DNA from: Kiritimatiellia bacterium
Lineage (GTDB): Bacteria > Verrucomicrobiota > Kiritimatiellia > RFP12 > UBA1067
Assembly: GCA_017403825.1 (NCBI GenBank)
Contig: JAFRDO010000066.1
Span: forward strand, 1 to 64,000
Length of the DNA stretch: 64,000 bases
Reading direction: 5' to 3'
Below are positions 10,834-57,747 of the stretch, piece after piece. The translations under genes and the position numbers were made by a program. How positions within the stretch are numbered: the first letter of the stretch is position 1; every line of letters begins with the position of its first letter. The notes under the pieces are model-generated. The model saw nothing but the letters and a program-made list of their open reading frames with translations. It had not been told where the DNA came from and searched no databases.

Positions 10834-13800
10834 ATGAAAATATCGATAATCTGTGTTGCGGCAATTGCCGTATGCGGAGCGACGAAAGCCGAAACGGTTG
10901 ACCTTGCTGGCGTGGACGCGACCGCCACGCTGCTGGCGTCGGATACCGTCTATGTCAATTCGTCCGAAACGACGGCGTCGCTGGTGTTCGACAGCGCGGA
11001 TGCGGTCACGTTCGCCGGGACGATCCAGGGCAACATCGCCGTGGTGAAGCAGGGCGCGGGCGAGCTGACGCTGACGGGCGCGAACACCTATTCCGGCGGC
11101 ACCTGCGTCAGCAACGGCTGGCTCAAGGTGAATAAGGATTCGCAGGTCGGCGGCGGCGCGGTTCGGCTTGGCGGCGGCAACCTGCGCCTTGGCGGGGCCT
11201 GGACGCCCTCGACATCCTGCATCACGCTTGACGTGGATGCCACAATTGATGTGGGCGGTGCCGACAACTATTTGTGGATAAAGCCCAGCACCTTCGTGAC
11301 AGCCGGCCATACTATGACCAAGATCGGTGCCGGATATCTGTATGTCGGCGATACTGGATTCACCGGTGCCATTGTGAATGGAGCGACGTGGGTCATCGAC
11401 GAGGGTTGGATGGCTGTTGCGTCCAAAAGCGATCCCTTTGGCGGCGCATACGGCACGAATCTTGCAGATCTTACGCTGGAATTGCATGAAGGCACCTACC
11501 TTACGGCGGAGGCCCATCTGCCGTTCCCGGCGCGGGTCGTGCTGCGTGGTGCGGAACTGCGTGGGTTGAGGCATGAATTTGGCGGTCCCGAGACAACGGA
11601 AAAATGGAGATCCTTCAGCCTCAACAGGACCTTGACGGTCGTGCCGTCCGCGAACGGCAAGGCGAGCGTGATCCACGCCAACGCCATGCACATGGGGCAC
11701 CAAGGCAACGTCCCGACCATTGTTGTGCAAGATGGTGCGGAACTCGTTATGAACGTATCCCCTGTGTGCGGATACATGAGCAGCGGTGTGCCGACCCCTG
11801 GCACGTTCGTGAAGCGCGGCGCGGGCAAACTTACGATTGCGCAGCCCGGTACGCTTGCGGGCGTGGTGCGCATCGAGGAGGGGACGCTGCGCTTCGGCAA
11901 GGACGGCAGTCTTGGAAAAGAAGCCACTTTGCTCACGTCGCCCTCGGCGAAGGTCGAGCTGGATGACGGTGCCGTTCTGGATTGCCGCTATGGCGGCGAC
12001 AACCTGCTCTCCTCCGCCGACATCTGGATCGACGCCACGGCGCAAGTGACGACCGAGGGTTCTACGCTCTCCTCCATCGTCAACCGCGGACAATGCGGAG
12101 GCGTTTTTGTGCAGGGCACGGGCAAGAGCGGAAACCCTGACTGCCCAACCTATTCGAGCTCCGCCTTGAATGGACGACCGGCATTTTGCTTCAACGGAGC
12201 GCAGGCGCTCGTCCTGAACACCTACACCAACAGATCCAAGGCAATCACGGTGTTCGCCGTGGCGCGCTGCACACACTGGGAAGCCGAGGGCAACAAGGGC
12301 AAGTGGGCCGCCTATCTTGCCATGCATTCGGCGGCTACGAACAAGAACGACAATGCCGTCTATACTTCACTTTACCATCAGGACAACGGCGGTTACGACT
12401 GGATGTTCGGTAGCAACGCCTCTCTCGTTCTGGACCATAACGCGACCATCAACTACCTGCCTGTCATCGACTGCGTACGACGGAACGGCAATTCGGCAAA
12501 TGCGATCCAGTATGTGTACAACAACGGCGAAGTGTCGAGCAAGACCGATACGGCGAGCCCTGCCTATTCGTTCAACATCGATATGACTGCGCTCGGCTGC
12601 CGGATAAGCGATGGTGGCAAGCTGGAGTACTATGGCACCGCCAACGGTTCGACCCGCTGCTTCTACGGCGACATTGGCGAAATCCTGGTGTTCTCCCGCT
12701 CCGTGACGGATGACGAACGCGCCGCCGTGAACGAGTATCTTTCGCGCAAGTGGTTCGGCGTCACGAACACCGCCGTCACGGCGAGCATCTATAATGGCAG
12801 TGCACAGCCCGCCGCCGTTTCCGTGCCGAGCGGCACGGCGACGCTTGTCACGCCCCAGACGATGCCGGGAAATCTGGAGAAGGAAGGAGGCGGGACGCTT
12901 CAGCTGAACGTCATGGCGGATCGGCACGAGGTGCGCGTGAAGGAGGGGACGCTCGCGCTGATGCCGACCTCCGTGGTGGCGCACATCGACGTGTGGATGG
13001 ATGCGGCGGATGCCTCCACAGTGACCACGAATGCCAACGGCCGGATTGCATCTCTTCGAAACAAGGGCAACGCGGGCGGCGCGTTCGGGGCGAGTCCGTC
13101 GCCGCAGTCGGCCTCCTATGGCGCACCGACGCCGATGTGGGAACTTTCGGGCATCAATTCGCTGCCGAGCCTGAAGTTCGCCGGCGATTCGGCATTGGTA
13201 CTCGATAGTTACGTCAACACAAACGCCTACGGATTCCTCAACATCTTCATGGTGGCGGAGCGTTCTCCGGTTTTTGACGGTACTGTTGCAGGGAAGGGCA
13301 AGTGGTCTGCGCCAATTTCCATGATGTCGAAGAACAGCACCAGTCCCGACAATAATCAGGCTGGCGCCTTCGTGTATGAAGAGAGTCCTAACGGCAGCAT
13401 TAACAGTTTCGAAGCCCGGTTGCACCGTGGCCCGCAAGAGGTGACCATCGCAAACATTACGAACAAGGTGCCCAACGCCGCCGCGTTCGTGTTTACCGCC
13501 TACCTGTGCGGCTATCGGCAGCACTACAACTTCGAGAGCCTTGCGGATAGCGCCGGCGGCGGAACGTCCGCAACGAAGGGCCTCAACTACAATCATATGT
13601 GGCCGACCGACATCAACCGCGTACAGCTGGGCTGCCGCCTTAACGGAAATGGCAATGCGCCGTTGTACGGAGATGGCAACAGCAATTCGCGCGCCTGGTA
13701 CGGGCGGATCGGTGAAGTCATCATCTGCACGGCCACGCTCTCGGATGCGGAGAAGTCGGCGATTCTCGGTTATCTGCGCAAGAAGTGGATGAACAAGGGT

Positions 13801-15173: not shown

Positions 15174-15296
15174 GTTGAGAGACGACTGAAAGGCGAAAGC
15201 TGTTTTCCTTTTGGCCGATATCGGGGGAGTAGTGCAGAGTCCTGTGGTTCTCCGATGGCCCTGATATGCCGCCGGCCGACTGCAGCTGCCGTTTAT

Positions 15297-23218: not shown

Positions 23219-24214
23219 ATGGCGCAAAAAATGACACGGGGCTGGTTAGTCGTTTTCCTCCTCGCGGCCGTTGCAGTGTTTTCGGCAGCAACACTGGACG
23301 CCGCGGCTCCGGAATGCGGCGGCGCCGCGGGCCCTTCATGCGCGAAGCGCGTGAACCACGTTGTGCTGATCGGCATCGACGGGCTCGGCGCACAGAACAT
23401 TCCCTGGGCGAAGATGCCGAATCTCGCCAAGCTGCGCGAGCGCGGCAAGTACACCGTCGGGCGCTGCCTGTACCCTACTTCGTCCGGATACAACTGGGCA
23501 TCGTGCCTCTACGGAACGGTAGCTGACCTGCACGGCTTCCGCGATGCGACGCCGGCTCCGCACGTGAAGCCGATGGTCGTGACGGCGAAGGGCAGATATC
23601 CCTGCATCTTCTCGGAAATCAGGCGGCAGGAGCCTGCCGCATTTACGTGCTCGCTCTACAACTGGGGACCCATCGGCAACTGCTACGAGAAGACGGACGT
23701 CTCCTGCGACCGCTGCTACAACGACAAGTTCACGCACGAGCAGGAGTCCGCGTACACCGACGAGTTCATAAAGGAGCTTCTGCCGCGCAAGCCGCGTTTC
23801 ACCTTCCTTTATTATGGCTCTGTCGACGAGACCGGCCACTTCAAGGGCGGGTGGAACTCCCCCGCGTACGATGCCGCCTGCGCCGACGTCGACAAGCTAG
23901 TCGGGCGCGTTGTCGCGGCCGTGGACGCGGCATTCCCCGGCGACGCGGCGATTGTCGTCGTCGCCGACCATGGCGGACACGGCACCGGGCATGGCGACCT
24001 GGAACTGATCTCCTACGAGATACCGTTCATCGTCTGCGCCCCCGGGCTTGACGGGTACGAGCTTCGCGACCCCGTCATCATCTGCGATGTCGTGCCAACG
24101 GTGGCGTGGCTGCTGGGAATGGAGATTCCGGAGTGCTGGCGGGGCCGCCCGGCCCTGCGCCGCGCTGCGAAGAAGCCGTGCAACAACGATACAACGAAAG
24201 GAAACAGCAAATGA
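23219..24214 (+). CDS. Exported NPP-type phosphodiesterase / nucleotide pyrophosphatase
   Basis: 331 residues from ATG 23219; ATG 23231 is also possible. Signal sequence (about 5-30). Alkaline-phosphatase superfamily, type I phosphodiesterase group: VVLIGIDGLG (metal Asp), LYPTSSGYNWASCLYG (Ser/Thr nucleophile region), GSVDETGHFK (Asp...His), VVADHGGHGTGHGD (Asp-His and His). There is no sulfatase-type C/S-x-P-x-R motif, so it should not need formylglycine despite the nearby SUMF1-fold genes. Close paralogue of the N-terminal half of the 30460 fusion protein. It overlaps the next small gene by ATGA (24211-24214). Confidence 0.87.
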   Translation: MAQKMTRGWLVVFLLAAVAVFSAATLDAAAPECGGAAGPSCAKRVNHVVLIGIDGLGAQNIPWAKMPNLAKLRERGKYTVGRCLYPTSSGYNWASCLYGTVADLHGFRDATPAPHVKPMVVTAKGRYPCIFSEIRRQEPAAFTCSLYNWGPIGNCYEKTDVSCDRCYNDKFTHEQESAYTDEFIKELLPRKPRFTFLYYGSVDETGHFKGGWNSPAYDAACADVDKLVGRVVAAVDAAFPGDAAIVVVADHGGHGTGHGDLELISYEIPFIVCAPGLDGYELRDPVIICDVVPTVAWLLGMEIPECWRGRPALRRAAKKPCNNDTTKGNSK

Positions 24215-24570
24215 AGATGCTTGACTGGGCGGCCTGTGCACTGTCCGTGGCGCTGCCGCTGGCGATGTTCGCAGAGACGGACATCTGCGGCAACGAGGTC
24301 CGGGAATACACCGAGGGTGGTGTCACCAAGACGTACAAGTTCATCTCGTCCGGCGACCCGCGCATCAACATCGGCTCAGCCGCGGTTTCCGCCGCGTCCC
24401 ACGCCAGAACAAGCACTGCGGACGGGCCGGGCGTCGCGCTCGCGTCGTCCACGCATTCGCTCGCCGCGTCTTCCCAGAAGCTCGAAGGCCGTTACTTCAC
24501 GGAGTTTTTCTCGGAAGGCACGGCTCTTCAGTCGGACAAGTTTCCGTCAATGGAAATCATATTCAGGTGA
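24211..24570 (+). CDS. Small exported protein ending in the [G/S]xxhhhR motif
   Basis: 119 residues with signal peptide MKMLDWAACALSVALPLAMF. The mature part is Ser/Ala/Thr-rich without a recognisable fold (NIGSAAVSAASHARTSTADG) and ends FPSMEIIFR at the stop, fitting the C-terminal pattern shared by seven exported proteins here. AAAGGA ribosome site; starts inside the stop of the phosphodiesterase gene (ATGA). It heads the SUMF1 pair as the 85-residue gene at 27542 heads the second pair. Function unknown; a secreted tag, scaffold or carrier for the C-terminal motif is a guess. Confidence 0.75.
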   Translation: MKMLDWAACALSVALPLAMFAETDICGNEVREYTEGGVTKTYKFISSGDPRINIGSAAVSAASHARTSTADGPGVALASSTHSLAASSQKLEGRYFTEFFSEGTALQSDKFPSMEIIFR

Positions 24571-26052: not shown

Positions 26053-26079
26053 GTCTAAGCGACGAGAGGATGCATACCA

Positions 26080-27498: not shown

Positions 27499-27541
27499 TC
27501 GCGTAATGTCTTTGGAAAATCGAAAATTAAGGACGCAAAAA

Positions 27542-27799
27542 ATGACAAACGCAGCTAGTCTTTGCAAACGACTTCTGGCAATTGGAGCGGCGACTATGGT
27601 CGCGATGGAAATTTGCGCGGCGGTGCGGTCCCCGGCGGCGTACGGCGATTCCGAAGCGCAGCCGATTGATACGCGCGTAGGCGCGGTTCTGGCTTTGACT
27701 GATCAGTCCCTCGACTCCCGCGTCAGCTCGTGGGACGTTTCGGGCTTTGGCGGCCTGGACACCTTCAATAGTCTGGGCCTCAACATCATCATTCGTTAA
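27542..27799 (+). CDS. Small exported protein with PIDTR-LDSR tail and [G/S]xxhhhR end
   Basis: 85 residues. Signal peptide to about residue 27 (KRLLAIGAATMVAMEICA). The mature 55 residues contain QPIDTRVG, then QSLDSRVSS, GFGGLDTF and the end SLGLNIIIR. The same order (KPIDTRIG, MDLDSRTGS, NLGGLTT, GGSRMLLH) closes the GDPD protein at 37071, so this gene encodes a free-standing form of that tail. The start at 27542 is set by GGACGC-AAAAA-ATG spacing and the signal peptide. It lies between the two SUMF1 pairs. Function unknown. Confidence 0.75.
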   Translation: MTNAASLCKRLLAIGAATMVAMEICAAVRSPAAYGDSEAQPIDTRVGAVLALTDQSLDSRVSSWDVSGFGGLDTFNSLGLNIIIR

Positions 27800-27826
27800 C
27801 AACCATATCATCTAAGGAGCAGAACA

Positions 27827-29116: not shown

Positions 29117-29128
29117 GGAGAGGTCGTC

Positions 29129-30459: not shown

Positions 30460-32172
30460 ATGAACAAGAAATTGCTTCTGGCAGGCTGCTGCGCAGCCAT
30501 GTCTGCGATGGTGTTTGCCGCGCCTGCGGATCAGGGGAAGGCGCGCGGACGCGGCGTTGACCACGTCGTGCTGATCGGCGTGGACGGCATGGGGATCCGA
30601 AACATCGCCTGGGACAAGATGCCGAACCTGCGCAAGCTGCGCGACAAGGGAGCGTTTACGGTTGCGCGCAGCACGTTCCCGACGTCGTCCGGCGTCAACT
30701 GGTCGTCCGCCCTCTGCGGCACTACGCCCGACCTCCACGGCGTGAGAGACAACACGCCAAAGCCCGGTGTGCCGCCAGCCGTCACCACCGCGAAGGGAGT
30801 GCACCCATGCATCTTCTCGGAAATACGTAAGCAGGAGCCGAACGCGTACACCTGCTCGCTCTACGACTGGAACGGCATCGGCTGGTACCACGATTCGGCG
30901 TCCGCAAACTTCACGAAGCTCTATCCGTCGAACTTCGAGAGCGAGTCGCAGTACACCGGCGAGTTCATCGAGCTCCTGAAGAAGAACGGTCCGCGCCTCG
31001 CGTTCATCACCTACGACATGCTCGACCACACGGGACACGCCTCGCGATACGACTCTCCCGAGTACACGAACGCCTGTGCGGAGGTGGACAAGTTCATCGG
31101 CCGTATAGCAGACTACGTCGCCGCCAATATGGCCAAGGATACGGCTATTGTCCTCTTTGCTGACCATGGCGGACACGACAAGGGGCACGGCGACGCAACG
31201 CTCGAATGTTACGAGATACCGTTCCTCGTGGTCGCGCCGGGGTTGGACGGCTTCGTCTTCCGCGAGCCTGTCACGATCAGCGACGTCGCGCCGACGGTCG
31301 CGTGGCTGCTCGGCTACAAGGTCCCCGAGTTCTGGCGCGGCAGGCCCGCTCTGCGCAGGAGCGTCAAGTATCCGCTGCAGAAGCGGCTGATCGTGCATGC
31401 GGGCATCGGGAACGGCGCGCCGCAGAACACGCTGCCAGCGTTCAAGGCTGCCGTCGCCACCGGCTTCGGCTTCGAATGCGACATACAGATGTCCGCCGAC
31501 CATCAGATCTTCGCCGCGCACAACGGCTCGGCGCTGGCATACGGCGGCGGGGACGTTCCGTTCAAGACGATGCCGTGGTCGGAGATAGAGAAGCTCGACG
31601 TCGGGCTCAAGCTCGGCGGGATCAGGTGGGCGGGAACGCCGCCGCCGCGCTTCGAGGATATCCTTGCGCTCATGCGCGACGGGCGCAAGTCGTTTGTCGA
31701 GGTGAAGGAGGCTGCGGGAACGGAAATCGTGCCGTATATTAAGAAGGCCGTCGAGAGCCAGCGCAACGCGACGCCCGACAACATGCTCTTCATCTCGTTC
31801 GACAGGGAGATATGCCGCGCGCTCCGCAAGGCGCTGCCGAAGTACGAGGTGATGTGGATCATTCTCCCGCGTAAGGACTTGGAGCGCCCCGACGACCAGA
31901 AGGGGTCGCCGTACACGGCTGAAGAGGTGATTGCGCTCCTGAAGGAAGCGAATCTCACTGGCGTGGACATGGCCGGCAACATGTCGGTCGCGACCGAGGA
32001 TTTCATCAGGAAGGTGAAGGCGGCGGGATTCAAGTTCGGCGTGTGGACGGTTGACGACACGAAGACTGCGAGAATCTTCCTCGAGCGTGGCGTTGACGCG
32101 GTTACGACCAATCGCTCCAAGGAGATTGCCGAAGAGCTGAAGGACTGGCAGTGGCCGGCAGGCGTGCTGTAA
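30460..32172 (+). CDS. Fusion: NPP-type phosphodiesterase plus glycerophosphodiester phosphodiesterase (GDPD) domain
   Basis: 570 residues from ATG 30460 (AAGGAA upstream, signal peptide NKKLLLAGCCAAMSAMVFA). Residues 30-310: VVLIGVDGMGIRN, TFPTSSGVNWSSALCG, MLDHTGHAS, LFADHGGHDKGHGD, close to the 23219 enzyme. Residues 315-565: a GDPD TIM barrel, VHAGIGNGAPQNTLPAFKAA, GFECDIQMSADHQIFAAHN, KSFVEVKEAAG, FKFGVWTVDD, VDAVTTNRSKEI. The GDPD motif HRG reads HAG and the usual HD reads HN, both here and at 37071, so substrate or chemistry may differ. The fusion implies consecutive cleavage of a phosphodiester such as a glycerophospho-headgroup or teichoic-acid-like polymer. Confidence 0.85.
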   Translation: MNKKLLLAGCCAAMSAMVFAAPADQGKARGRGVDHVVLIGVDGMGIRNIAWDKMPNLRKLRDKGAFTVARSTFPTSSGVNWSSALCGTTPDLHGVRDNTPKPGVPPAVTTAKGVHPCIFSEIRKQEPNAYTCSLYDWNGIGWYHDSASANFTKLYPSNFESESQYTGEFIELLKKNGPRLAFITYDMLDHTGHASRYDSPEYTNACAEVDKFIGRIADYVAANMAKDTAIVLFADHGGHDKGHGDATLECYEIPFLVVAPGLDGFVFREPVTISDVAPTVAWLLGYKVPEFWRGRPALRRSVKYPLQKRLIVHAGIGNGAPQNTLPAFKAAVATGFGFECDIQMSADHQIFAAHNGSALAYGGGDVPFKTMPWSEIEKLDVGLKLGGIRWAGTPPPRFEDILALMRDGRKSFVEVKEAAGTEIVPYIKKAVESQRNATPDNMLFISFDREICRALRKALPKYEVMWIILPRKDLERPDDQKGSPYTAEEVIALLKEANLTGVDMAGNMSVATEDFIRKVKAAGFKFGVWTVDDTKTARIFLERGVDAVTTNRSKEIAEELKDWQWPAGVL

Positions 32173-37074: not shown

Positions 37075-38078
37075 AAGCGCTGCCCGTTCTCGCCGCTGCC
37101 GCGACAGCGCTTGCTGCCGGAACACTGCTTGCGGACGGCGGTTTGGCAGCAATGCCTCTCAAGACCATGCTCGTGGCGCATGCCGGGAAGGGCTATGGTG
37201 CTCCGGAGAACACTCTGCCTGCTTTCCAGGCCGCCATCGATGCCGGCTTCGGCTTCGAATGCGACATACAGATGTCCGCCGACCATCAGATCTTCGCGGC
37301 GCACAATCCCACGGCCTCGGCATACGGCGGCGGGAACGTTCCGTTCAAGGAGATGCAGTGGTCCGAGATTGCGCAGCTCCGGTGCGCGGGGACGCCTCTG
37401 CCGCGCTTCGAGGACATACTGGCGCTTATGCGCGATGGGCAGAAGTCGTTCGTCGAGGTAAAGGAATCTGCCGGCACCGAGATCGTGCCCTACATCAAGT
37501 CGGCGGTCGAGAGCCAGAGTGTGGCTACGCCGGCGAACATGCTCTTCATTTCGTTCGATAGGGAAATCTGCCGTGCGCTCCGCCAGGCCCTGCCGGCCTA
37601 TGAGGTGATGTGGATCATTTTCTCGCATAAGGATCTTGAAGTCCACGACGACCAGAGGGGACCGGCGTACACGGCGGCCGAGGTAATTGAGCTTTTGCAG
37701 GAAGCGAACCTTACCGGTGTCGATATGGCCGGCGACAAGTCGGTGGTGACCGAGGCGTTCGTGCGGCAGGTCAAGGCCGCCGGGTTCAAGTTTGGCGTGT
37801 GGACTGTAGACTCCATAGACAACGCTCGCATATTTCTGAAGCGCGGTGTTGACGCGGTGACGACCAATCGCACCAAGGAGATAGAAGAAGAGCTTGCGGA
37901 CTCTCCGTGGCGGTTGGCGGAGTTTCTCGACTCTGCGGCGAAGCCGATCGATACGCGCATCGGGACTAAATGCGACGTGTCGGACATGGACCTTGACTCG
38001 CGCACCGGCTCGCAAGCCGAATCGAACCTTGGCGGCCTGACCACAACTCAGGGCGGAAGCCGCATGCTACTCCACTAA
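37071..38078 (+). CDS. Exported GDPD-domain protein with PIDTR-LDSR tail
   Basis: 335 residues from ATG 37071 (ATGA overlap with the phosphodiesterase). Signal peptide MKALPVLAAAATALAAGTLL. GDPD barrel: LVAHAGKGYGAPENTLPAFQ, GFECDIQMSADHQIFAAHN, KSFVEVKESAG, FKFGVWTVDSIDNARIFLK, VDAVTTNRTKEI. Very close to the C-terminal half of the 30460 fusion, including the HAG-for-HRG and HN-for-HD changes. Unlike the fusion it continues about 45 residues with KPIDTRIGTK, DMDLDSRTGS, NLGGLTT and ends GGSRMLLH, the tail shared with the small protein at 27542. Confidence 0.85.
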   Translation: MKALPVLAAAATALAAGTLLADGGLAAMPLKTMLVAHAGKGYGAPENTLPAFQAAIDAGFGFECDIQMSADHQIFAAHNPTASAYGGGNVPFKEMQWSEIAQLRCAGTPLPRFEDILALMRDGQKSFVEVKESAGTEIVPYIKSAVESQSVATPANMLFISFDREICRALRQALPAYEVMWIIFSHKDLEVHDDQRGPAYTAAEVIELLQEANLTGVDMAGDKSVVTEAFVRQVKAAGFKFGVWTVDSIDNARIFLKRGVDAVTTNRTKEIEEELADSPWRLAEFLDSAAKPIDTRIGTKCDVSDMDLDSRTGSQAESNLGGLTTTQGGSRMLLH

Positions 38079-38149: not shown

Positions 38150-40726
38150 ATGAAAAGAATGCTGATGATAGCGATGTGGATTTTGGCCGGTGCGGCGTTT
38201 GGCGGGGTCATCTACGAGAACGACTTCGCGACGCGCACGAGCGCGGGCGTGGTTCCGATGTCTGAATGGCGCACCTACGACTACGTGGCCGACTTCATCG
38301 CCCACACGAACGGAGCAAGCCCCTTCGCCGATTCGGATAACGTGAGCAAGATGCAGGACGGATGGATCAAGACGGCAGACAGCACTACAGACGCCCGCGT
38401 GTGGAGGGGTACGACCGGCACTGCCGACTCCGCCGTCGTCCTTGGGCTTTCCAGTACCGGCAGCAGTAAAACGACATGCTTCGTGAAGCAGCGTATCGGC
38501 AATACCTTCACGAACGGCACGGTCACGATCCAGTTTGATTTCCAGCCGCCCGAGAATTGGGGTGCCTACAATGATGAAAACATATTGCGCCGCGCAACCC
38601 TCTCTTTTGGCGACGAGGCGTTCTACTCCCCCGATTTCAAACAGAATATCGTGGATATCAAAGAGTACCAGCATACCGTCGGCAGCGTCGGCGTGGCGAT
38701 CCACGGCCCGGAAGGAGGCCGCAAGCGCAAGGTCTATTACAATGCCCGGCAGGACTTCGCCAACACCAACATGACGGAACAGGTGGTGACGCAGGGCAAC
38801 TGGCTCCGCGCCGTTGCGACCATCGACCTCGACGACAGGAAGTGGGGCTTTTCGATGTATGACATGGGTTCGCATCCTGTCTTTGACGCCGCGACGCCCG
38901 CCTCGGCGGTCTATTCCGCGAGCGATCTCCCCTTTGCCGACAACTCCGTGACGAGCATCTCCTCGATCGCCCTCGGCGGTATCAGCGTCTACTGGCGTAC
39001 CGGCAGCGGCTACAGTCCGTCCACAGTCCCCACGCACGTCGCGAGGTTCGACAGCATCCGCATCTGGCACAATGGCGAGGCATGCTACGAAAACGACTTT
39101 GACACGCGCCGCTGGCGCACCTTCGGCGGCACGGCGTCGCACACATACGTCGCCGACTGCCTTGTCACTAACCGCGTGGAAAGCGAGGTCTATGTCTTGG
39201 AGCAGAATCTCGTTCCTGCTCGTGAGAATAATGGTACCACGGTTCAGCCTGAAGGCATCGACCGCTGGCGGCGTGTCAACAAGGACGGCACGGGGAACGC
39301 CGCAGTCAGGTCGGATAGTAGTGGAACCGTTCTGCGCTTCGACCTTTCGCGTGACGGCAACAAGAAAAATTACTACGCATTTCTTGCTCAGCCACTTGAA
39401 ACGACCTTCTCTTCTGGTAAGTTGAAGTTCTCGGTGGATACGCGTCTGCCATCTAACGATTACTGGAAATATCAATCAGGACTCGCGAGCGTCCTCTGGG
39501 TGACGCTTGGGAGCGCAAGCTACTACGCTGGAGACCCCGACAATTACAACAAATGGCGTTGGGCCGCTGTCGGCATTCGCGCCCAAAGTGACGGCAACAA
39601 GGTGACATACGTGCCGAGCAGTGGTGATTCGCCGAATTTTGTGCCAGACACCGGAAGTATCACCAATGCCGCTTGGTATCGTATCGTCATCGAGGCGGAC
39701 ATTGATGCGAAGAATTACGCTTTCAAGGTTTATTCGCAGGGAGCGAAATATCCTGACAGCGAAACCGCCGACAAGACGCTCATCTACACGAGTCCAACCA
39801 TACCACAGAAGGACACCCTCAATACCATTTCCAGCTTCTCCCTCGCCGCCTACTACTGCCCGGTCTATTTCGACAACATCAAGATTTGGCACACGCCGAC
39901 GGGATCGGAATCGGGAACGCTCATTTACTGCAACTATTTCACCTCCCGCACGATCTATGCGCAGGACACGCGCGTTGCATCGCTCGGCGGAACGCTGAGT
40001 TTCAACCCCGTTGGCCAGGACGGCTGGACACACCTCTACGTAAACGCCCCGCCCATATTCATAGACTGGGCGGACGGCAATCCTGCGCTCACAATCTCCC
40101 GCTACAAATTTGAACTCTACGCTGCGCAGGATTTGGGGCAGACGGTGAAGAACGGGACGCTCATTGCGCAAGCCGACATGAGGCCGCCGAAGGGATGGCT
40201 GGCGAGCGGCGGATCGGCGTACCTCCGATTGGGCGGCGACGCGCACATCCAGGGGGCTCTCCGCGACGATGACACTTATTTCCTCAAGAATATTGCTACT
40301 GGCTTCGGCTTCAAGAACAGGAATTCCGGGAAGGAAGGCAACATCTACACCAATTCGACGATAGTCGCCTATCGCGGCGACCTCGCCGGCGGCGGCGCGA
40401 TGGAGAACGCTGCCGTCGACGTGGACACTACGCATTGGTACCGTTTCGTCGCTGCGGCCGATATGTCGCAGAGTCAATGTGACGTAGCCGTTTACGACAT
40501 GGGCACGACGCACCCGACGCTCGCCACGGCCACGCCGGGAACGCCCGTCGCGACCTTCTCCGCCCTGCCGTTCCGCCGCGCCAAGCGCGACCTCGGCGGC
40601 ATTTCCTGCGTTTCTGTATCCTCCGACAAGACCCTGCAGAGCATGTACGACCAGTCGCTCGAGCCGATGATCGACAACATTCGCGTCTCGCACGAGACGG
40701 ACGGCTGCTGCATCATGATACGATAA
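38150..40726 (+). CDS. Giant exported protein of three LamG-like modules, CCIMIR C-terminus
   Basis: 858 residues from ATG 38150 with signal peptide MKRMLMIAMWILAGAAFG. Three homologous modules of about 270-290 residues begin VIYENDFATRTSAGV, ACYENDFDTRRWRTFGG and LIYCNYFTSRTIYAQD. Each has a PP(E/K)-containing jelly-roll centre (FDFQPPENWGAYND, ADMRPPKGWLASGG) and ends in an ISSIALGGISVYWR-type segment. No enzymatic motif, so probably binds glycans or forms surface structure. Ends DGCCIMIR. Followed after 6 bases by an EEP hydrolase, the same pairing as 10834/14217. Confidence 0.82.
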   Translation: MKRMLMIAMWILAGAAFGGVIYENDFATRTSAGVVPMSEWRTYDYVADFIAHTNGASPFADSDNVSKMQDGWIKTADSTTDARVWRGTTGTADSAVVLGLSSTGSSKTTCFVKQRIGNTFTNGTVTIQFDFQPPENWGAYNDENILRRATLSFGDEAFYSPDFKQNIVDIKEYQHTVGSVGVAIHGPEGGRKRKVYYNARQDFANTNMTEQVVTQGNWLRAVATIDLDDRKWGFSMYDMGSHPVFDAATPASAVYSASDLPFADNSVTSISSIALGGISVYWRTGSGYSPSTVPTHVARFDSIRIWHNGEACYENDFDTRRWRTFGGTASHTYVADCLVTNRVESEVYVLEQNLVPARENNGTTVQPEGIDRWRRVNKDGTGNAAVRSDSSGTVLRFDLSRDGNKKNYYAFLAQPLETTFSSGKLKFSVDTRLPSNDYWKYQSGLASVLWVTLGSASYYAGDPDNYNKWRWAAVGIRAQSDGNKVTYVPSSGDSPNFVPDTGSITNAAWYRIVIEADIDAKNYAFKVYSQGAKYPDSETADKTLIYTSPTIPQKDTLNTISSFSLAAYYCPVYFDNIKIWHTPTGSESGTLIYCNYFTSRTIYAQDTRVASLGGTLSFNPVGQDGWTHLYVNAPPIFIDWADGNPALTISRYKFELYAAQDLGQTVKNGTLIAQADMRPPKGWLASGGSAYLRLGGDAHIQGALRDDDTYFLKNIATGFGFKNRNSGKEGNIYTNSTIVAYRGDLAGGGAMENAAVDVDTTHWYRFVAAADMSQSQCDVAVYDMGTTHPTLATATPGTPVATFSALPFRRAKRDLGGISCVSVSSDKTLQSMYDQSLEPMIDNIRVSHETDGCCIMIR

Positions 40727-43366: not shown

Positions 43367-46300
43367 ATGAAGAACATGCTCCATGCCGTTGTCGCCGCTG
43401 CACTTGTCGTGGTGTTCGCAGTATCCTCAAATGCCACCACCTATACCAGCGCAAGCTACGTGCAAAACGGCTTGATTGCGCAATGGGACGGCATCGACAA
43501 TGCTGGAACGGGTACGCACGACCCGACCACAAACATCTGGAAGGACCTGAGGGGCAGCCTCGACATGACGCTCACGGACAAGGGTTCGTGGACGGCTGAT
43601 GGCAACGCGCTCTTTTGTAATAACGGCGCGGGTGCGCAGGGCGCAAGCGCGACGCCCGCCTACAAGACCATTGAAATCGTTTACAAGATGACATGGGCCG
43701 GCGGGCGCATCCTGTTCAGCAGCGGAATTGCGACGCGGTTCGCTGTTTTCGACAACGATGGCACCAGGCTCTATTTCGACGGGGAGAAGACGACAAAGAC
43801 CATCGTTTGTACGCATGACCCGAGCGCAATCTGTTTTACGACGGCGACATACGACGACAGTTCGACGGTGAGCAACCTCTATTTCAATGGCAACCTCCGA
43901 AACGACGACATCAAACTGAATACATGGGGCACGGGTGACGGCAAGGTCGCGGTCGGCGACAGGTCGCTTTCTGCATCATATCCTTGGATAGGCGAGGTCT
44001 ATGCAATCCGTCTTTATGACCGCGTCCTGACGGCGGAGGAGATTGCCTTGAACTGCGCGATCGACAAGGCGAGGTTCATGCCGTCGGATTACGCGGAGGA
44101 TGATTCGGTGACGAGTTCAAGCTATGTCCAGGATGGACTGATGGCTCAGTGGGACGGCATCGACAACCAAGGCACGGGAACGCACGACCCGACCGCAACA
44201 ACATGGAAAGACCTCGCCGGCAACAACGACCTCACCATTGTCGGTGGACTCCACGCCGAAGGCCGCAACGCCGAATGGCGGCGCGGCATCGCGCTCTACT
44301 TCAACAACGTCTCCCTCGGCAAGGCCGCAGTCTGCGGCGTCGACGGCATTGTTCCGAAGTACAAGACGATAGAGGTGGTGTACAAGATGACGTCAAGGTC
44401 AGCGCGCATCCTGTTCTGGGGCGGCGACCGTTCGCGCTATGTCTTGTTCGACCACAACGTTGACGATCCCTTCAGCACGGTGTACTTTGACGGAAGGGAA
44501 ATAACGAGAACGGACAGGACGTTCTGGGCCAAGGTGAAGTCCTATGATCCGACCTCTGCCGTCGCCACATACGACGACAACGACAACGTAACCGACGTCT
44601 TCATAGACGGCGCAGGGAAATCAGACAACAGGCAGTACAACACGTGGGGTGCCGGCGACAATCGTGTCACGCTCGGCTGGCGCTCGGTGGATACAGCTGG
44701 TACGACCTACGGCTGGGAAGGCGAGGTGTACGCGATTCGTCTCTACAACCGCGTCCTGACGCCCGAGGAGATCGCCAAGAACCACGCCATCGACGTGAAG
44801 CGCTTCTTCACGTCCGCGATGTACGATACGACCGGCATGGTCTCGTTCTGGGACGCGAAAGACAATGCCGGCACGGGAACGCACAGCCCGGCGGCGACGA
44901 CCTGGAAGAACCTCGTTCCCGGCGGTCAGGACATGACGGTTGACACGAGGATCGCCCAGTGGACCGCAGGCGCGATGCTCTGCAACGATGGAGTGACAAA
45001 CGACGCCGGCATCTACCGTCCCGCCGCGTACGGCACGGCGCCGCTTGAGTACAGCTCGCTTGAGGTGGTGTTCCGCAACGAGCGGTTGAACGGAACGTGG
45101 AACGCCTGGCTGCTCTCGAATGGCATCGACCGCTACTGCGTTCTCGCCGGAAACCGCACGATGTGGCAAAACTACATCGCGACCTACGCGATGGATTCCA
45201 CGCAGGGCGGCAACCATTCGCTTTCTTGGGTGAGGCGTTCCGGCGAGTCCGATGCCGACGCTGTCCCATACGTCGATGGCGAGAAAAAGAACTATGAATC
45301 GTATGGAGACTATTGGGGCGTTGGCGACAACGTCGTCCACGTTGGCGGACGCACAGGTTCCTACAGCTTCAGCGGACGCATCTATTCCGTGCGTGCATAC
45401 AGCAGCCAGCTTTCCACGGTGAAAGTTTATGAGAACAGGAAGATCGACGAGGTGCGCTATGCGAACTCGAAGTGGTGGAGCGGCGGCGACGGCTCGTTCG
45501 GGACTGTCGGCAACTGGCGCAGCGTGGACGTGGCGAAGGCGGTTCCCGGCACCGAGAGCACGGTTGAGCTGCCGTACGGCACCTACACGATTTCGCTGGA
45601 TCGTGACAGGACGGTCGGCGCGATGCGGGCGCGGAACGGCCACGTGTACTACTTCCCCACGCGCCTAATCGACGCGACGGTGGACATGGGCGGGCACAAG
45701 CTGACGCTCATGGGTTCGTACAGGGGCGAGGCGAGAAGCGGCTACAACGACAGGCGGTTTGCCCGCCTAAGCCTCACCAACGGCACGTTTCAGTCCGAGT
45801 CCATCCGCATCGGCGATCTTGCGGATCGCATTGTTGACAACGTGACATGGAAGGACTACGAGGATGCCTTAAAGTATGGCTCCGGCACGTTCTGCGTGGA
45901 AGGACCTGATACGACCGCGACGATTCGCAAGGACGTGGCGCTGGAAGGTCCGTGCACGACGCTTCGCGTTGCGGGTGGCGCGACGTTCTCGTGCAGCGAC
46001 CTGCGGATGTACAGCACGAAGAACCGCCTCGATTCCTATCCTTCCGGGAAGTACGACAGGGCGCTCGCCGAATTTACGGGAGCCGGCACGACGGCGACCC
46101 TTGGCAAGTTCTGCGGCTACAACGATGTGGATGTCGTGGTCAGCAACGGCGCATCCGTTGCCGTGAATGCCAGTACGGAGTATTTCTCGGCGGCGGAATG
46201 CTGGATCAGCAGCATCGGGCGCAGCTTCGAAGGCCTGCCCGGTTCCGGCAGCATTGTCGTGGATGACGCGACGCTCACGATGAAGAGCACGGGTTTTGCG

Positions 46301-46996
46301 GTCGGTGTGACGTATCTCGCTTCCGGCAGCGGCAATTCGTCGATGACGCTCAGGAACAATGCCACGCTTACGCTGACGGGCATGAGCCGGTTCTTCGTCG
46401 GAGTGGGTGCAAACGACAACAGGATGAGCGAGACGGGCTGCTTCCTCAACGTGTTGAGCGGATCGACGCTCGACGGCGGCTCCACGCAGCTTGAGGTCGG
46501 ACCTGTCGGCAACACGTCGTTCAGCGGAATTAATGTCGATAACGCAACGGTGAACTGCGGCGTTATCTATCTGGGCTCGAAATCGTCCGAAACATGCAGC
46601 TCCAACGATCTCCTGCACGTCTCAGGTGCGGCTCCGCGCATCAATCTCGCCAGCGAAGCCAGCACTTCGCTTCAGCTGCGCATGGGTACGCGGCTCAAGT
46701 TCACGATTCCCGAAAACGGCTTCGCGGCGACGCCGATCGTCACTGCCGGCGGTGTGCATGTGGAGTCGGACGAAGCTCAATACGCCGTCGATCCCGTCAA
46801 GCTGGTCATCGACGCCTCGGCGTTCAAGGGCGACAGGCAGACGCTTGTCAAGACTGCGACGGATTCGACGGCGGCGTTCCAGAAGCTCATCGGCAACATC
46901 AATTTCGTCGGCAGAAAACGCGGCTTGCTCACCATCGAAGCAGGTGGCACGGAGCTGGTATATTCCGTTCCCGGCGCACTTCTGATAATCCGCTGA
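43367..46996 (+). CDS. Giant exported protein of three LamG-like modules plus beta-strand region, LLIIR C-terminus
   Basis: 1,209 residues, signal peptide MKNMLHAVVAAALVVVFAVS. Three modules of about 230 residues: SYVQNGLIAQWDGIDNAGTG, SYVQDGLMAQWDGIDNQGTG and a third opening MVSFWDAKDNAGTG. They contain AYKTIEIVYKM-type strands, RILFSSG, and WIGEVYAIRLYDRVLTAEEI ends with IDKARF. Residues about 700-1180 are beta-strand-rich with autotransporter-repeat character (VEGPDTTATIRKDVALEGPC, GSGSIVVDDATLTMKSTG). Ends VPGALLIIR. Close relative of the 55201 protein. No catalytic site seen. Confidence 0.85.
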   Translation: MKNMLHAVVAAALVVVFAVSSNATTYTSASYVQNGLIAQWDGIDNAGTGTHDPTTNIWKDLRGSLDMTLTDKGSWTADGNALFCNNGAGAQGASATPAYKTIEIVYKMTWAGGRILFSSGIATRFAVFDNDGTRLYFDGEKTTKTIVCTHDPSAICFTTATYDDSSTVSNLYFNGNLRNDDIKLNTWGTGDGKVAVGDRSLSASYPWIGEVYAIRLYDRVLTAEEIALNCAIDKARFMPSDYAEDDSVTSSSYVQDGLMAQWDGIDNQGTGTHDPTATTWKDLAGNNDLTIVGGLHAEGRNAEWRRGIALYFNNVSLGKAAVCGVDGIVPKYKTIEVVYKMTSRSARILFWGGDRSRYVLFDHNVDDPFSTVYFDGREITRTDRTFWAKVKSYDPTSAVATYDDNDNVTDVFIDGAGKSDNRQYNTWGAGDNRVTLGWRSVDTAGTTYGWEGEVYAIRLYNRVLTPEEIAKNHAIDVKRFFTSAMYDTTGMVSFWDAKDNAGTGTHSPAATTWKNLVPGGQDMTVDTRIAQWTAGAMLCNDGVTNDAGIYRPAAYGTAPLEYSSLEVVFRNERLNGTWNAWLLSNGIDRYCVLAGNRTMWQNYIATYAMDSTQGGNHSLSWVRRSGESDADAVPYVDGEKKNYESYGDYWGVGDNVVHVGGRTGSYSFSGRIYSVRAYSSQLSTVKVYENRKIDEVRYANSKWWSGGDGSFGTVGNWRSVDVAKAVPGTESTVELPYGTYTISLDRDRTVGAMRARNGHVYYFPTRLIDATVDMGGHKLTLMGSYRGEARSGYNDRRFARLSLTNGTFQSESIRIGDLADRIVDNVTWKDYEDALKYGSGTFCVEGPDTTATIRKDVALEGPCTTLRVAGGATFSCSDLRMYSTKNRLDSYPSGKYDRALAEFTGAGTTATLGKFCGYNDVDVVVSNGASVAVNASTEYFSAAECWISSIGRSFEGLPGSGSIVVDDATLTMKSTGFAVGVTYLASGSGNSSMTLRNNATLTLTGMSRFFVGVGANDNRMSETGCFLNVLSGSTLDGGSTQLEVGPVGNTSFSGINVDNATVNCGVIYLGSKSSETCSSNDLLHVSGAAPRINLASEASTSLQLRMGTRLKFTIPENGFAATPIVTAGGVHVESDEAQYAVDPVKLVIDASAFKGDRQTLVKTATDSTAAFQKLIGNINFVGRKRGLLTIEAGGTELVYSVPGALLIIR

Positions 46997-51000: not shown

Positions 51001-51005
51001 ATTGG

Positions 51006-51162
51006 CTAGAGAAGCTAGAACTGCTAGAAACGCTAGAAACGCTAGAATGGCTAGAGAAGCTAGATTTGCTGGAATTTCTAGGTTTTCTAGAACCTCTAGG
51101 TCTCCTAGAATCTCTAGACCTTCTAGACCTTCTAGACCTTCTAGAACTTCTAGCCCCTCTAG
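51006..51162 (+). repeat. CTAG 9-nt periodic array 2 (18 positions)
   Basis: From 51006 to 51159 CTAG occurs at every ninth base, with one degenerate unit (CTGG at 51069). Units drift gradually: CTAGAGAAG, CTAGAAACG, CTAGAACCT, CTAGACCTT (three in a row), CTAGAACTT. The array fills the gap from the hsdS stop (51000) to the AAAGG ribosome site of the four-helix-bundle gene. It looks like slipped-strand expansion followed by divergence, with the CTAG core held. Confidence 0.95.
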
Positions 51163-51182
51163 CCTCACAGAAAGGCCTTTCC

Positions 51183-51827: not shown

Positions 51828-51895
51828 AAAATCTAGAATCTCTAGATTGGCTAGAACTTCTAGAACTGCTGGCATAGCTAGTACTCCTAGAAAGG
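51824..51895 (+). repeat. CTAG 9-nt periodic array 3 (8 units)
   Basis: CTAG at 51824, 51833, 51842, 51851, 51860, (CTGG at 51869), 51878 and 51887: strict 9-base spacing. The first CTAG supplies the stop of the upstream gene. The last unit, CTAGAAAGG, supplies the ribosome site of hsdR, exactly as array 1 does for hsdS. Confidence 0.93.
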
Positions 51896-51905
51896 AGCCC
51901 TGCTG

Positions 51906-54900: not shown

Positions 54901-55124
54901 AGCTTGTCGAGAAGATCGAGGCGAATGTGGACGCGGCGTTTCCGCCGGACTGGTTCAAGTATCAGGCGCGGAAACTGCAGGTGAGGGATTTCATAAGCGA
55001 GACGTGCGCAGACCGCCTCGACGGACAGTTTGACAAAACGATGTTCGACGACGGCATGCGGCGCATCTACCGGCTTTTTCTCGATCGTGCGCTCAACAAC
55101 GAGCCGATACTGCACGTGGCGTAA
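51906..55124 (+). CDS. hsdR: Type I restriction enzyme R subunit (nuclease and translocase)
   Basis: 1,072 residues, usual length. N-terminal PD-(D/E)XK nuclease with D151 (RPDVLIFVNG) and E165-L-K167 (VFIELKNADRK). SF2 translocase: Walker A HTQGSGKSY (K319), DEAH box VDEAHRTQY (D417), LAFTGTPLG, and the later VVAVDRYTAVKYHN and MQTIARVNRVFPGKNHGLIVDF motif VI block. The C-terminal region for HsdM/HsdS assembly ends FLDRALNNEPILHVA. All key residues are present, so restriction should be active. Preceded by array 3. Confidence 0.95.
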   Translation: MAKILTEDDIEKALVKFLTGAGWGYSEINAMTAVREKLSDGTGRDDKSQCVLPAILRESLKALNPEIPEAKLEEVASELSEYRGADGVNMTVNRELYERIRNGVPVQFVKDGEEKSETVRLVNFDEPYKNDFRAVRQMWIRGVNDAWRRPDVLIFVNGLPLVFIELKNADRKVENAFNDNLANYKKDIPNLFAFNQVCVLSNAGETRVGAFASPWEHFFEWLRLDEKGERADRETLRKNVTDYAGCSLELLAKGLLDPQRLIDYVENFVLFDGLEAKVNKILAKNHQYLGVNAAMASLANRKTLKGKLGIFFHTQGSGKSYSMVFLARKAIRKLRGNFSFLVVTDRENLDGQIAKTFVRCGVVKAEDEARPKNAEKLREALSDNKLFTFTLIQKFRYDPGREYPVLSTRDDIIVMVDEAHRTQYKDLAANMRKGLPNANYLAFTGTPLGKTGEWFGGTISEYNFADAIADGSTCPIYYRNMAPTVDFCKNMMDSDVEAIGDEEELSLDEREKLERRFAAEIEVLTRDERITDNAKKIVEHFVTREWRGKAMVVAVDRYTAVKYHNAVNKYWPEFRKELNVRRIHAATAEERDRWQKAIDYMDKVERAVVISGDANEEQQFAKKGIPGIREIRERIDKIDSEGADIEDNFKDPNHPLSLVFVCAMWLTGTDIPCMSTMYLDKPMKGHTLMQTIARVNRVFPGKNHGLIVDFVNIFKYVEKALGIYVKPGAGITMPVKPIDDLIESLNKGVEDTKAFLGTIGIDLGKVSNLPKNQSFDKVEAFNDFLDRILSKDDWRNRFFIYTNKVDAVWTASKPEVFDFLGRVSKYLSPVLYLRKMMDARADSSRLEKAIARLAAELDSRVTIKVSGVQNGEGREIDLAKIDVTKIDEKLKQTNYPNLMIDDLRKVVEDELAKLLGKNKTRTVFSERYQKIVDEYNAGSVESEEAFKRLMELLDRMKEEEKRAEREGLTEQQLEIFDLLCSGRKLTKAQELAAKLAAKELVEKIEANVDAAFPPDWFKYQARKLQVRDFISETCADRLDGQFDKTMFDDGMRRIYRLFLDRALNNEPILHVA

Positions 55125-55134
55125 GGTTTTCCTC

Positions 55135-55200: not shown

Positions 55201-57747
55201 ATGAAGAAGGTCTCGCTTCTCGCCGTTGTCGCCGCTGCGTTCGCAGTTTCGGCGCATGCCACCCCATACACCAGTGCGAGCTACGTGCAGAGGGAGCATC
55301 TGATCGCCCAATGGGACGCCATCGACAACGTCGGCACGGGAACGCACGACCCGAACGCGAAGGTCTGGAAGAACCTCGCCGGTACCGGCAGCATCTACGA
55401 CCTGACGCTCACGAACAGCGCATGCTGGAAGAACGGCGACAGGCTCGTCGTCAACAAGACTTCCGCCGTCGGCACGAGTACCATGCCTGCCTACAAGACC
55501 ATCGAGGTCGTCTTCAGAGCGACGATGGCTCCCGGTGCGAACAATGGGCGCATTCTCTTCACCAGTGGAGACGGTGATAAACGTCAACTTGTGGTGTTCG
55601 ACTATGGTGACAATGCCACGAAGGGTTATTTCTCCGGTACGAAGGCGTATCATCAATGCGTCAATTGGCATAACGAAGCCGACAACCTGCGTTCGCTGCG
55701 CTCGATGGCGGGCGTGTTCGCCAACACCAGCGCAAATACCTCAGCCGTGTACGGCGATGGCATAGAGCGAACCACTACGATGTCCAACGACTTCTGGTCT
55801 GGTTCCGTGATGATGATCGGCGCCCGGCGAGGCAGTTCTGGCGAGGAATTTGGCTGGTACGGCGAAGTCTCGACAATCCGCATCTATGACTGCGCACTGA
55901 CGGCTGAGGAAATCGCCCAGAACCACGCGATCGACGTGGCGCGTTTCGGTGAGCAGTTGCCTTCAAGCGCGGACTACGTTCAGGACGGACTTCTCGTGCA
56001 GTGGGACGGCATCGACAACGCAGGCACGGGCGTCCACGATCCGGCCGCGACGACGTGGAAGAACCTTGCGGGCGGCGGCTACGACCTGACGCTCACGAAC
56101 AGTGCAACCTGGAATGCGGAGGGTCGGGCACTTGTGATAAATGGCGTTTCGGCGGTTGCGGATGGCGTCACGCCGGAGTACAAGACGATCGAGGTTGTCT
56201 GCAAGCGGACGAGTTCGGGTGCGCGCATGATGTTCCATAGCGGACATAAGACGAGGTTTGTCCTTTTCGATGCTGACGGCGGAAATCAGCGCGCCTATTT
56301 CTCTGGCGACACGGCAGACAACCAATCTACCGTAACGAAATATGTCAAGCAGCCGTTTTTGGGATCTGAAATAGACTTTCTTGCCGGACGGTATGACGAT
56401 GACGGCAAGGTGACGGATGTGTTCAAGGACGCGAATCAGCGCGAAGACGGTGCACGCGGAAACAGCTGGGGCGTAGGGACGGGCATATCGATTGGCGGGC
56501 GCTTGAACACGTCAAATCCCTATCTGTGGTACGGCGAGGTGTATGCAATCCGTCTCTACAGCCGACGCCTCACTAAAGCCGAACTGGCGCGTAACCACCA
56601 GATCGACTGCAAGCGGTTCTTGACAAGCTCAAGCTATATTCAGGAAGGGCTGACCGCGCATTGGGACGGCACGGACAACGTCGGCAGGGGACAGCACGAC
56701 TCGTCCGCGACCACATGGAAGAATCTTGTTTCGGGCGGCATGGATCTGACAATCGGCTCCGGCGTGTGGACCGATACGGCGTTGATGTGCGTCGGCAGCA
56801 GCACGATGGCGGCGACGGGAACCAACTATCAGGCATACAACACGCTTGAAGTCGTGCTTATGAACGCCAATCACGGTGCCGCATCCATGCCGTTCAGTGC
56901 CGGCCTTGCCAACAGAGTTCTTGCGTTAGCGGGGAATCGTGTCCAGTGGCGGAGCCAGTGGGCGACAACCAATTTCACGCAATCTACGGTCGGGCGTTAT
57001 TCGCTGACGGGAATTCTGACAGACGGGAGTGAGGCGGCCTACGCAAATGGCGCAAAGATTCAGTATGGTGCGTATAATGACAACTGGGGCCAAGGGGCGA
57101 GCTATGTTCAGGTCGGCGGACGAATACAGTCGGGCAGCTATTATGCCTTTACGGGCGACATCTTCGCCATCCGCACCTACAACAACGCATCAATTCCCGA
57201 ACGGGTTGCCTACAACTACAAGGTTGATCGTCGTCGCTTCAGCCTTGATGCGAACACCTTCACATGGGCGAGCGCAGGCGACGGGTTCTTTACGAACAGT
57301 AACTGGACGGTTTACGGGCAGGCCTCGGTGAAAGCTCCGGGCGCGTCGGATGCAGTTGCGTTGCCGGACGGAGACTACACGGTGACGCTGGACGAGACGG
57401 TCGTCGAATCGCTTTCCGTCGGTGCGGGGGCAAAACTTAAGATGTTGCTGCCGTCCGGTGCAGATGCGACGAACGCGGCGATGCTCACGGTGGTCGGCGG
57501 CATGACCGCTGCGTCCGGCGCTGGGCTTGTGCTTGATGCGCAGTCGTTCGGCAAGAAGCATCCAGAGGAAAGCATCACGATTGTCGAGTGCGCGAATGAT
57601 TCTGCCGCCGCGCTTCAGGCGTTGGCCGACAACCTCTCCTTCGACAATACCGACAGTCTGCATCAGGGTACGGTTGCAGTTGTCGATGGCAAGAAGCTCG
57701 TCTATACCGCACCGGTCAAAGCTGGCGTGATTCTCATTATCCGCTGA
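55201..57747 (+). CDS. Giant exported protein of three LamG-like modules, ILIIR C-terminus
   Basis: 848 residues; signal peptide MKKVSLLAVVAAAFAVSAHA. Three modules open SYVQREHLIAQWDAIDNVGT, DYVQDGLLVQWDGIDNAGTG and SYIQEGLTAHWDGTDNVGRG. Each has an AYKTIEVVF-type strand and ends like GWYGEVSTIRIYDCALTAEE with NHAIDVARF. A short C-terminal region with a beta-repeat flavour (GDYTVTLDETVVESLSVGAG) leads to KAGVILIIR. Paralogue of 43367, sharing its promoter; this copy lacks the 480-residue beta-strand region. No catalytic residues. Next gene begins directly after the stop. Confidence 0.85.
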   Translation: MKKVSLLAVVAAAFAVSAHATPYTSASYVQREHLIAQWDAIDNVGTGTHDPNAKVWKNLAGTGSIYDLTLTNSACWKNGDRLVVNKTSAVGTSTMPAYKTIEVVFRATMAPGANNGRILFTSGDGDKRQLVVFDYGDNATKGYFSGTKAYHQCVNWHNEADNLRSLRSMAGVFANTSANTSAVYGDGIERTTTMSNDFWSGSVMMIGARRGSSGEEFGWYGEVSTIRIYDCALTAEEIAQNHAIDVARFGEQLPSSADYVQDGLLVQWDGIDNAGTGVHDPAATTWKNLAGGGYDLTLTNSATWNAEGRALVINGVSAVADGVTPEYKTIEVVCKRTSSGARMMFHSGHKTRFVLFDADGGNQRAYFSGDTADNQSTVTKYVKQPFLGSEIDFLAGRYDDDGKVTDVFKDANQREDGARGNSWGVGTGISIGGRLNTSNPYLWYGEVYAIRLYSRRLTKAELARNHQIDCKRFLTSSSYIQEGLTAHWDGTDNVGRGQHDSSATTWKNLVSGGMDLTIGSGVWTDTALMCVGSSTMAATGTNYQAYNTLEVVLMNANHGAASMPFSAGLANRVLALAGNRVQWRSQWATTNFTQSTVGRYSLTGILTDGSEAAYANGAKIQYGAYNDNWGQGASYVQVGGRIQSGSYYAFTGDIFAIRTYNNASIPERVAYNYKVDRRRFSLDANTFTWASAGDGFFTNSNWTVYGQASVKAPGASDAVALPDGDYTVTLDETVVESLSVGAGAKLKMLLPSGADATNAAMLTVVGGMTAASGAGLVLDAQSFGKKHPEESITIVECANDSAAALQALADNLSFDNTDSLHQGTVAVVDGKKLVYTAPVKAGVILIIR

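Follow-up and report, generated by a model that had tools for sequence, protein, structure and literature searches.

New membrane enzymes and secretion systems, among them exosortase, rhombosortase, myxosortase and the type IX system, have time and again come to light through C-terminal sorting signals. The PEP-CTERM, GlyGly-CTERM, MYXO-CTERM and LPXTG signals combine a motif with a transmembrane helix and a basic cluster and are served by a membrane enzyme, type I secretion signals are hydrophobic C-termini on proteins without an N-terminal signal peptide, and the outer-membrane beta-signal is a terminal strand ending in F or W. Type IX secretion relies on C-terminal domains (CTDs) of type A (TIGR04183/PF18962) or type B (TIGR04131/PF13585). 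Two reports describe shorter forms: Prevotella intermedia carries type IX signals of 40-55 residues with three predicted strands (PMC11969387), and GFP is secreted when it carries just the final 22 residues of HBP35 (PMC10202324).

The C-terminal ending described here, hereafter the tag, resembles each of these signals in part. Like those read by exosortase, rhombosortase, myxosortase and sortase, it is a short signature with a terminal basic residue on dozens of unrelated exported proteins; unlike them, it lacks a helix, and its occurrence does not follow that of the resident exosortase. With the outer-membrane beta-signal it shares the idea of a C-terminal strand as targeting signal, but the barrel-like proteins read here keep their F ending whereas the last residue of the tag, by the pattern used, is R, K, Q or H. 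It has the hydrophobic extreme C-terminus of type I substrates, yet those lack the N-terminal signal peptide that tagged proteins possess. Similarity to the type IX CTDs, including the short P. intermedia forms, extends to C-terminal position, beta-type character, a conserved basic residue near the end and occurrence on signal-peptide proteins with many passenger types, and the last strand of type B domains resembles the tag strand. However, CTDs fold as units of 40-100 residues and contain several motifs, whereas the tag comprises about seven shared residues and matched no such domain. By analogy, type IX domains are the closest working model for the tag, which, as it fails the type IX domain test, is not classed as type IX.

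The window, the whole 64,000-nucleotide stretch that was analyzed, lies on contig C43 of a draft genome (G000; 3.93 Mb, 90.8% complete). A preliminary description had reported seven exported proteins in it with the shared ending [G/S]-x-x-h3-[R/K/H]-stop, where h is hydrophobic. These proteins and one untagged relative are as follows.

10834..14217, + strand: exported PATR (passenger-associated repeat) protein, 1127 aa, with the divergent tag GFLMMVK at 14194-14217
24211..24570, + strand: small exported protein, 119 aa, with signal peptide, linker and the tag variant SMEIIFR at 24547-24570
27542..27799, + strand: mini-protein (start codon picked by eye) with signal peptide, 43-residue DTR/DSR module and tag GLNIIIR at 27776-27799
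30460..32172, + strand: untagged relative of the GDPD protein, 74% identical over 104 aa to the 37071 protein
37071..38078, + strand: exported GDPD enzyme with an appended DTR/DSR module and the divergent tag GSRMLLH at 38055-38078
38150..40726, + strand: exported protein, 858 aa, with a predicted concanavalin-A-like C-terminal domain and tag GCCIMIR at 40703-40726, conserved in homologues
43367..46996, + strand: exported LamG protein, 1209 aa, with tag GALLIIR at 46973-46996
55201..57747, + strand: exported LamG protein, 848 aa, with tag GVILIIR at 57724-57747

All seven endings are present where they had been placed, each within an open reading frame accepted by an independent caller, and all seven proteins score as having a signal-peptide-like start (2.4 to 3.5 against a threshold of 2.2, using a heuristic that allows the best upstream start), with only three of the seven reaching a stricter threshold of 2.6. 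The claim that cytoplasmic proteins of the window lack the ending also held, as G..h.h[RKQH]-stop occurs on none of 18 proteins without a signal peptide versus six of 20 with one, where about 0.01 would be expected from the rate inside proteins; the seventh case, at 24570, falls outside this pattern through its Ser at -7. As had been noted, the gene at 24211 encodes little beyond signal peptide, linker and ending. Other parts of the preliminary description needed revision. GFLMMVK (14217) and GSRMLLH (38078) are divergent and convince by context alone, and of the three hydrophobics proposed at -4 to -2, those at -4 and -2 stand while -3 is not always hydrophobic in 13 tagged homologues of the 38150-40726 protein; judged from these homologues, in which Gly is invariant, the motif is better written G-x-x-h-x-h-[RKQ]. 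The window does not hold four giant LamG proteins by Pfam, since the 10834 protein is a PATR protein and the 38150 protein, concanavalin-like by model, has no Pfam match. Nor do the seven lack any other shared fold: the 43367 and 55201 proteins are visibly similar LamG proteins, and the 27542 mini-protein has in common with the C-terminal part of the 37071 GDPD protein the 43-residue DTR/DSR module (49% identity), for which phmmer found no further occurrence in the sampled loci. By sequence comparison, then, the seven examples are not all mutually independent.

An exported FGE-sulfatase-type cluster spans 24625-30409 (24625, 27827 and 29129 by Pfam, 26080 because it starts similarly). Its members 24625 and 27827 are each immediately preceded by one of the two tiny tagged genes, and exported FGE-type proteins of this kind recur in the sampled genome stretches. 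Between the two tagged LamG genes, 47816-55124 encodes a type I restriction-modification system (HsdM at 47816 and HsdR at 51906 by Pfam, an HsdS-like gene at 49756), and 16652-18991 encodes an exported, untagged DUF4838/GH67-N-like protein.

Beyond the window, the ending can be searched for as a DNA pattern because every codon for I, L, V, M or F has T as its second base. In the window's own genome, the strict pattern G-x-x-h-I-I-R-stop gave 17 matches versus none for the reversed pattern, the intermediate G-x-x-h-[IV]-[IV]-[R/S]-[stop/W] gave 29 versus one, and the loose G-x-x-h-h-h-[R/S]-[stop/W], which also lets in Ser for Arg and TGG for stop, gave 87 versus 32. These counts exclude chance as the genome-wide source of the ending. 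For comparison at the protein level, we sampled 669 genes with complete 5' ends from 61 stretches (1.19 Mb) of this genome, using our own ORF caller and a hydrophobicity-based heuristic score for signal peptides (threshold 2.2); the sample is partly targeted, as it consists of the window, 40 stretches chosen at motif matches and 20 hand-picked regardless of matches. In this sample G..h3[RK]-stop ends 45 of 304 signal-peptide proteins versus three of 365 others, with 0.05 and 0.08, respectively, expected from internal occurrences. Shuffling of the last seven residues over 500 rounds yielded 0.87 cases of [GS]..h3[RKH] on average and never more than 4, against 50 real cases in the same partly targeted set. 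The preliminary description had proposed a test for enrichment among signal-peptide proteins against shuffled controls, and the ending in its broader form, G..h.h[RKQH]-stop, is indeed rare without a signal peptide (7/365 versus 60/304, again in the partly targeted sample).

The 20 untargeted stretches, a small sample taken alone, agree for the broader form (6/84 versus 1/162, p 0.007, 0.07 expected), while the strict form is found on 2/84 versus 0/162 (p 0.12). At a signal-peptide threshold of 2.6 the G..h3[RK] contrast weakens to 34/226 versus 14/443. On reading, four of the seven tagged proteins without a called signal peptide are gene fragments or have borderline signal peptides (L085, L103, L097 and L105), two look cytoplasmic (L098 and L128) and one is ambiguous (L086). 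The ending is thus largely confined to signal-peptide proteins, and as 244 of the 304 do without it, it is not required for export in general.

The anatomy of the tag was read from the 60 tagged signal-peptide proteins, in which Gly at -7 is present by definition. Position -6 is most commonly A, M, L or T, I, L or V predominates at -4 and -2, position -3 is I in 30 of 60, and the chain terminates with R in 47 proteins, K in eight, Q in three and H in two; upstream, the residue seen most often at -9 is P, and that at -8 is R, followed by P. The best 17-residue hydropathy within the last 30 residues reaches 1.6 in only three of the 60, so that, as predicted from sequence, the tag contains no C-terminal membrane helix and the PEP-CTERM arrangement of helix and basic cluster is lacking. 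Tagged proteins are long, with a median of 857 residues versus 478 for the untagged signal-peptide proteins, and also include mini-proteins of 67-119 residues. Pfam-scanned carriers include PATR, LamG, right-handed beta-helix, FGE-sulfatase-type and GDPD proteins, six of the 17 scanned having no match at the thresholds used. With the tag removed, the 57 carriers longer than 170 residues fall into 28 groups without between-group BLAST similarity at E 1e-3, some of which may still have a fold in common, and the DNA sequences of the strict tags differ in 17 of 17 cases. Together, the dissimilar groups and differing DNAs make the tag look selected as a peptide, not copied as DNA, and spread by DNA copying is disfavored. 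A short C-terminal signature on mainly exported proteins with dissimilar passengers, which characterizes C-terminal sorting signals, is what was found.

The position of the tag relative to folded domains points to an add-on. Four LamG proteins keep the tag behind linkers of differing length, and in one of them (L070, 810 residues) the LamG profile ends at position 149 of 151, at residue 793. Choice-of-anchor Q matches end 13 residues before the C-terminus in L075 of the window's genome (23.8 bits, cut-off 25) and 10 residues before it in L213 of G165, from another family of the class (25.7 bits). An AlphaFold2 model of the last 285 residues of the 38150-40726 protein, built from 13 input sequences, has a concanavalin-like domain at residues 81-280 with block pLDDT of 61-93 (matched best in the PDB by calreticulin and lectins, with E near 1e-6 and TM near 0.4-0.5) and pLDDT below 50 at residues 281-285. 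This one usable model suggests that most of the tag lies outside the confident fold, the low confidence fitting a free tail without proving one; a second model, of a LamG protein from four sequences, is uninformative on the tag (mean pLDDT 44.8).

Relatives with and without the tag point the same way. The 30460 protein ends without module or tag despite its 74% identity over 104 aa to the tagged GDPD protein, and of the FGE-type homologues 18 are untagged while the one that is tagged carries a long extension ahead of the tag. Outside the tagged set, 31 sampled proteins resemble tagged C-terminal regions: 18 are these FGE-type proteins, and of the other 13, eight are tagged (short, cut or borderline entries), one is degenerate and four have no tag (the window's 30460 protein, L071, L106 and L073). 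The third of these, a LamG-type protein at L106:11469-14294 (G000:C83), has a GVCILVR-coding stretch about 60 bases downstream, possibly through a frameshift.

The preliminary description had also expected orthologues to keep the ending. The 38150-40726 protein has matches in nine of 57 family genomes, its own included, and among the 14 of 30 homologue loci whose C-terminal ends were read, 13 (from nine genomes, window protein included) keep Gly at -7, hydrophobics at -4 and -2 and a terminal R, K or Q. Their identity to the window protein is 25-35%, and their linkers vary in length. The fourteenth (L276) has an in-frame stop, and its downstream piece (L085:3163-3423) ends in GMTLLIH. The exception was the GDPD protein, for which a contig scan found a single relative, an untagged GDPD-containing protein on DFGM01000104.1 (Verrucomicrobia bacterium UBA3750); the 884-residue protein encoded just upstream of that gene ends in GLMIVIR.

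We assessed the distribution of the tag in 345 genomes of the class by comparing real and control matches to G-x-h-h-[IV]-[IV]-[R/S]-[stop/W]. The window's genus (61 genomes) gave 176 versus 23 and the remainder of its family (53 genomes) 236 versus 23, for 412 versus 46 in the whole family of 114 genomes. Counts fall to 51 versus 36 in the remainder of the order (47 genomes) and to near control, 173 versus 159, in the remainder of the class (184 genomes). A simple excess test (at least three matches and at least three times control) is passed by 54 of the 114 family genomes, many of those not passing being small or incomplete. Excesses outside the family (real/control) are seen in G110 (8/0), G389 (4/0), G165 (7/0), G396 (6/1) and G595 (5/0), and within the order in G457 (6/0). 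Beyond family and order, 14 genomes have an excess of the tag and eight the opposite excess, which makes single outliers with few matches uncertain; reading of the ends confirmed G110 and G165. Direct reading also found tagged proteins in G259, G332, G230 and G203 and variant forms in G253, and none on the three PATR giants of the genus-mate G377. Two genomes without a real DNA-pattern match, G465 and G469, are nevertheless tagged by reading, with variants such as GTMIRIQ that the patterns miss, so per-genome counts are lower bounds. The tag is therefore not peculiar to the window: it is enriched across one family and a few outliers, and not in most of the class.

A co-occurring membrane enzyme, the partner anticipated by the preliminary description, did not emerge. 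No receptor, translocon or protease tracks the tag in a search covering exosortase, SprA_N, CHU_C, Peptidase_C25 and PorV. Exosortase (PF09721) was present in 22 of 22 genomes, whether these were rich or poor in tags; in the window's genome it is a single gene (G000:C1:32200-32934, in a 729-residue frame), and 13 sampled proteins with a C-terminal helix have no PEP-type motif by eye. The SprA_N profile matched none of the 22 genomes and was silent in the control genome as well. Among 16 genomes, CHU_C (PF13585) had no match above cut-off, with one sub-threshold match in G259 (E 0.049) and none in G000; Peptidase_C25 was found in six (five of nine tag-rich genomes and one of seven others, the tag-poor G359) and was absent from G000; and PorV-family matches were found in ten, tag-rich and tag-poor alike, all below cut-off, with none in G000. 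These last look FadL-like from their sequences. When 48 C-terminal tails of 59 residues, a length that may truncate a type IX domain, were scanned against NCBIfam (E <= 5), no model matched more than one tail, and neither TIGR04183 nor TIGR04131 was among the ten families listed. One tail domain searched against plasmids gave no match, and no published description of the ending was found among the matches listed, by titles and opening abstract lines.

The likeness to a type IX last strand without the domain itself, as originally noted, is consistent with the silence of TIGR04131, TIGR04183 and, above cut-off, CHU_C. A known type IX system is not supported by the TIGR, CHU_C, Peptidase_C25 and PorV searches, the SprA search having a silent control. 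A true type IX system that has diverged, with the tag as its minimal signal, is unlikely. It would account for the shared position, beta character and terminal basic residue, the precedents of 40-55 residues in P. intermedia and 22 in HBP35 (PMC11969387 and PMC10202324) make so short a signal conceivable, and Peptidase_C25, the PorU sortase fold, is present in five of nine tag-rich genomes. However, the window's own genome lacks this peptidase and tag-poor G359 has it, CHU_C gave one sub-threshold match in 16 genomes, no TIGR04131 or TIGR04183 was among the families matched by the 48 tails, SprA_N was found in none of 22 genomes (the control being silent too), and the PorV-family matches are sub-cut-off, FadL-like and indifferent to tag content. 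It is decidedly unlikely that the tag is a processing signal, with an envelope protease or transpeptidase cutting near the Gly to release or anchor the protein in the manner of sortases and exosortases: the conserved Gly and the frequent preceding Pro or basic residues could form a cleavage region, and the tag comes after choice-of-anchor Q matches, but the signals of this type known to us have the transmembrane helix that is absent here, and the exosortase of 22 of 22 genomes is unrelated to the tag. The PEP-CTERM/exosortase system itself is rejected on the lack of both helix and co-occurrence, in line with the original distinction from PEP-CTERM; the distinction from a beta-barrel terminal Phe likewise stands, given endings in R, K, Q or H.

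Three further readings carry little probability. A strand that inserts into a neighboring surface protein, akin to donor-strand complementation and with no transport role, would suit a strand-like, hydrophobic peptide apparently outside the domain fold of several large LamG, PATR or beta-helix proteins; it is improbable in light of the tags on GDPD-, FGE-type and mini-proteins and the need for partner grooves to suit 28 dissimilar C-terminal groups. The resemblance of G-x-x-h-x-h to the eukaryotic beta-signal would favor a lineage-specific assembly signal for the outer-membrane beta-barrel machine, yet all six barrel-like proteins read (weak PorV-family matches from genus-mates and relatives) end in F and the Pfam scan of 17 tagged proteins gave no match to a barrel family, which leaves this a very faint prospect and disfavors the outer-membrane beta-signal as such. 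Finally, last strands are often hydrophobic, and the strict form in the untargeted stretches (2/84 versus 0/162, p 0.12) would accommodate chance or the ordinary last strand of common folds. The whole-genome real versus control counts and the 28 dissimilar groups run against this, and an ordinary last strand is disfavored because the tag sits past the end of a complete domain, behind linkers of variable length; we regard the combination as next to negligible.

We therefore favor, at somewhat better than an even chance, a linear, modular C-terminal targeting signal that is read by an envelope machine sorting periplasmic proteins to the surface. The proposal of an undescribed sorting, secretion or processing signal is partly supported and remains the best available reading; a partner enzyme that tracks the tag was not found. 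The tag exists, is strongly biased toward exported proteins, is modular and conserved and has no transmembrane helix; the receptor, the outer-membrane step and surface display are what we infer from these observations. In such a scheme, tagged proteins would enter the periplasm through Sec by virtue of their predicted N-terminal signal peptides, with the C-terminal peptide hanging free of the last folded domain, as one model suggests. A periplasmic or outer-membrane receptor of the envelope would bind the tag as a short beta-strand. The hydrophobic side chains at -4 and -2 would point toward this receptor, Gly at -7 would serve as a bend or clearance residue and the terminal basic side chain or carboxylate as the anchor point. 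The protein would then be handed on to the outer membrane, or across it, and displayed at the surface. In its logic the tag would be a type IX CTD reduced to its final strand. With neither a helix nor a recognizable folded domain to bind, the receptor would have to work unlike those of the compared systems.

More tentatively, and with the balance leaning against it, a new outer-membrane export or surface-anchoring machine of this bacterial family may read an unstructured seven-residue C-terminal peptide and serve about 7% of the exported proteome, a figure taken from the six of 84 signal-peptide proteins in the untargeted stretches. To our knowledge, seven residues would be shorter than any known sorting signal for large Gram-negative surface proteins. 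The tag is probably, judging from sequence, an undescribed address label by which dozens of mostly large exported proteins, in this bacterium and many relatives, reach the cell surface. Its role can be tested directly on paralogues that differ in the tag, like the window's two GDPD-type proteins, and if the reading is true, likely surface proteins of uncultured bacteria could be listed from sequence alone.
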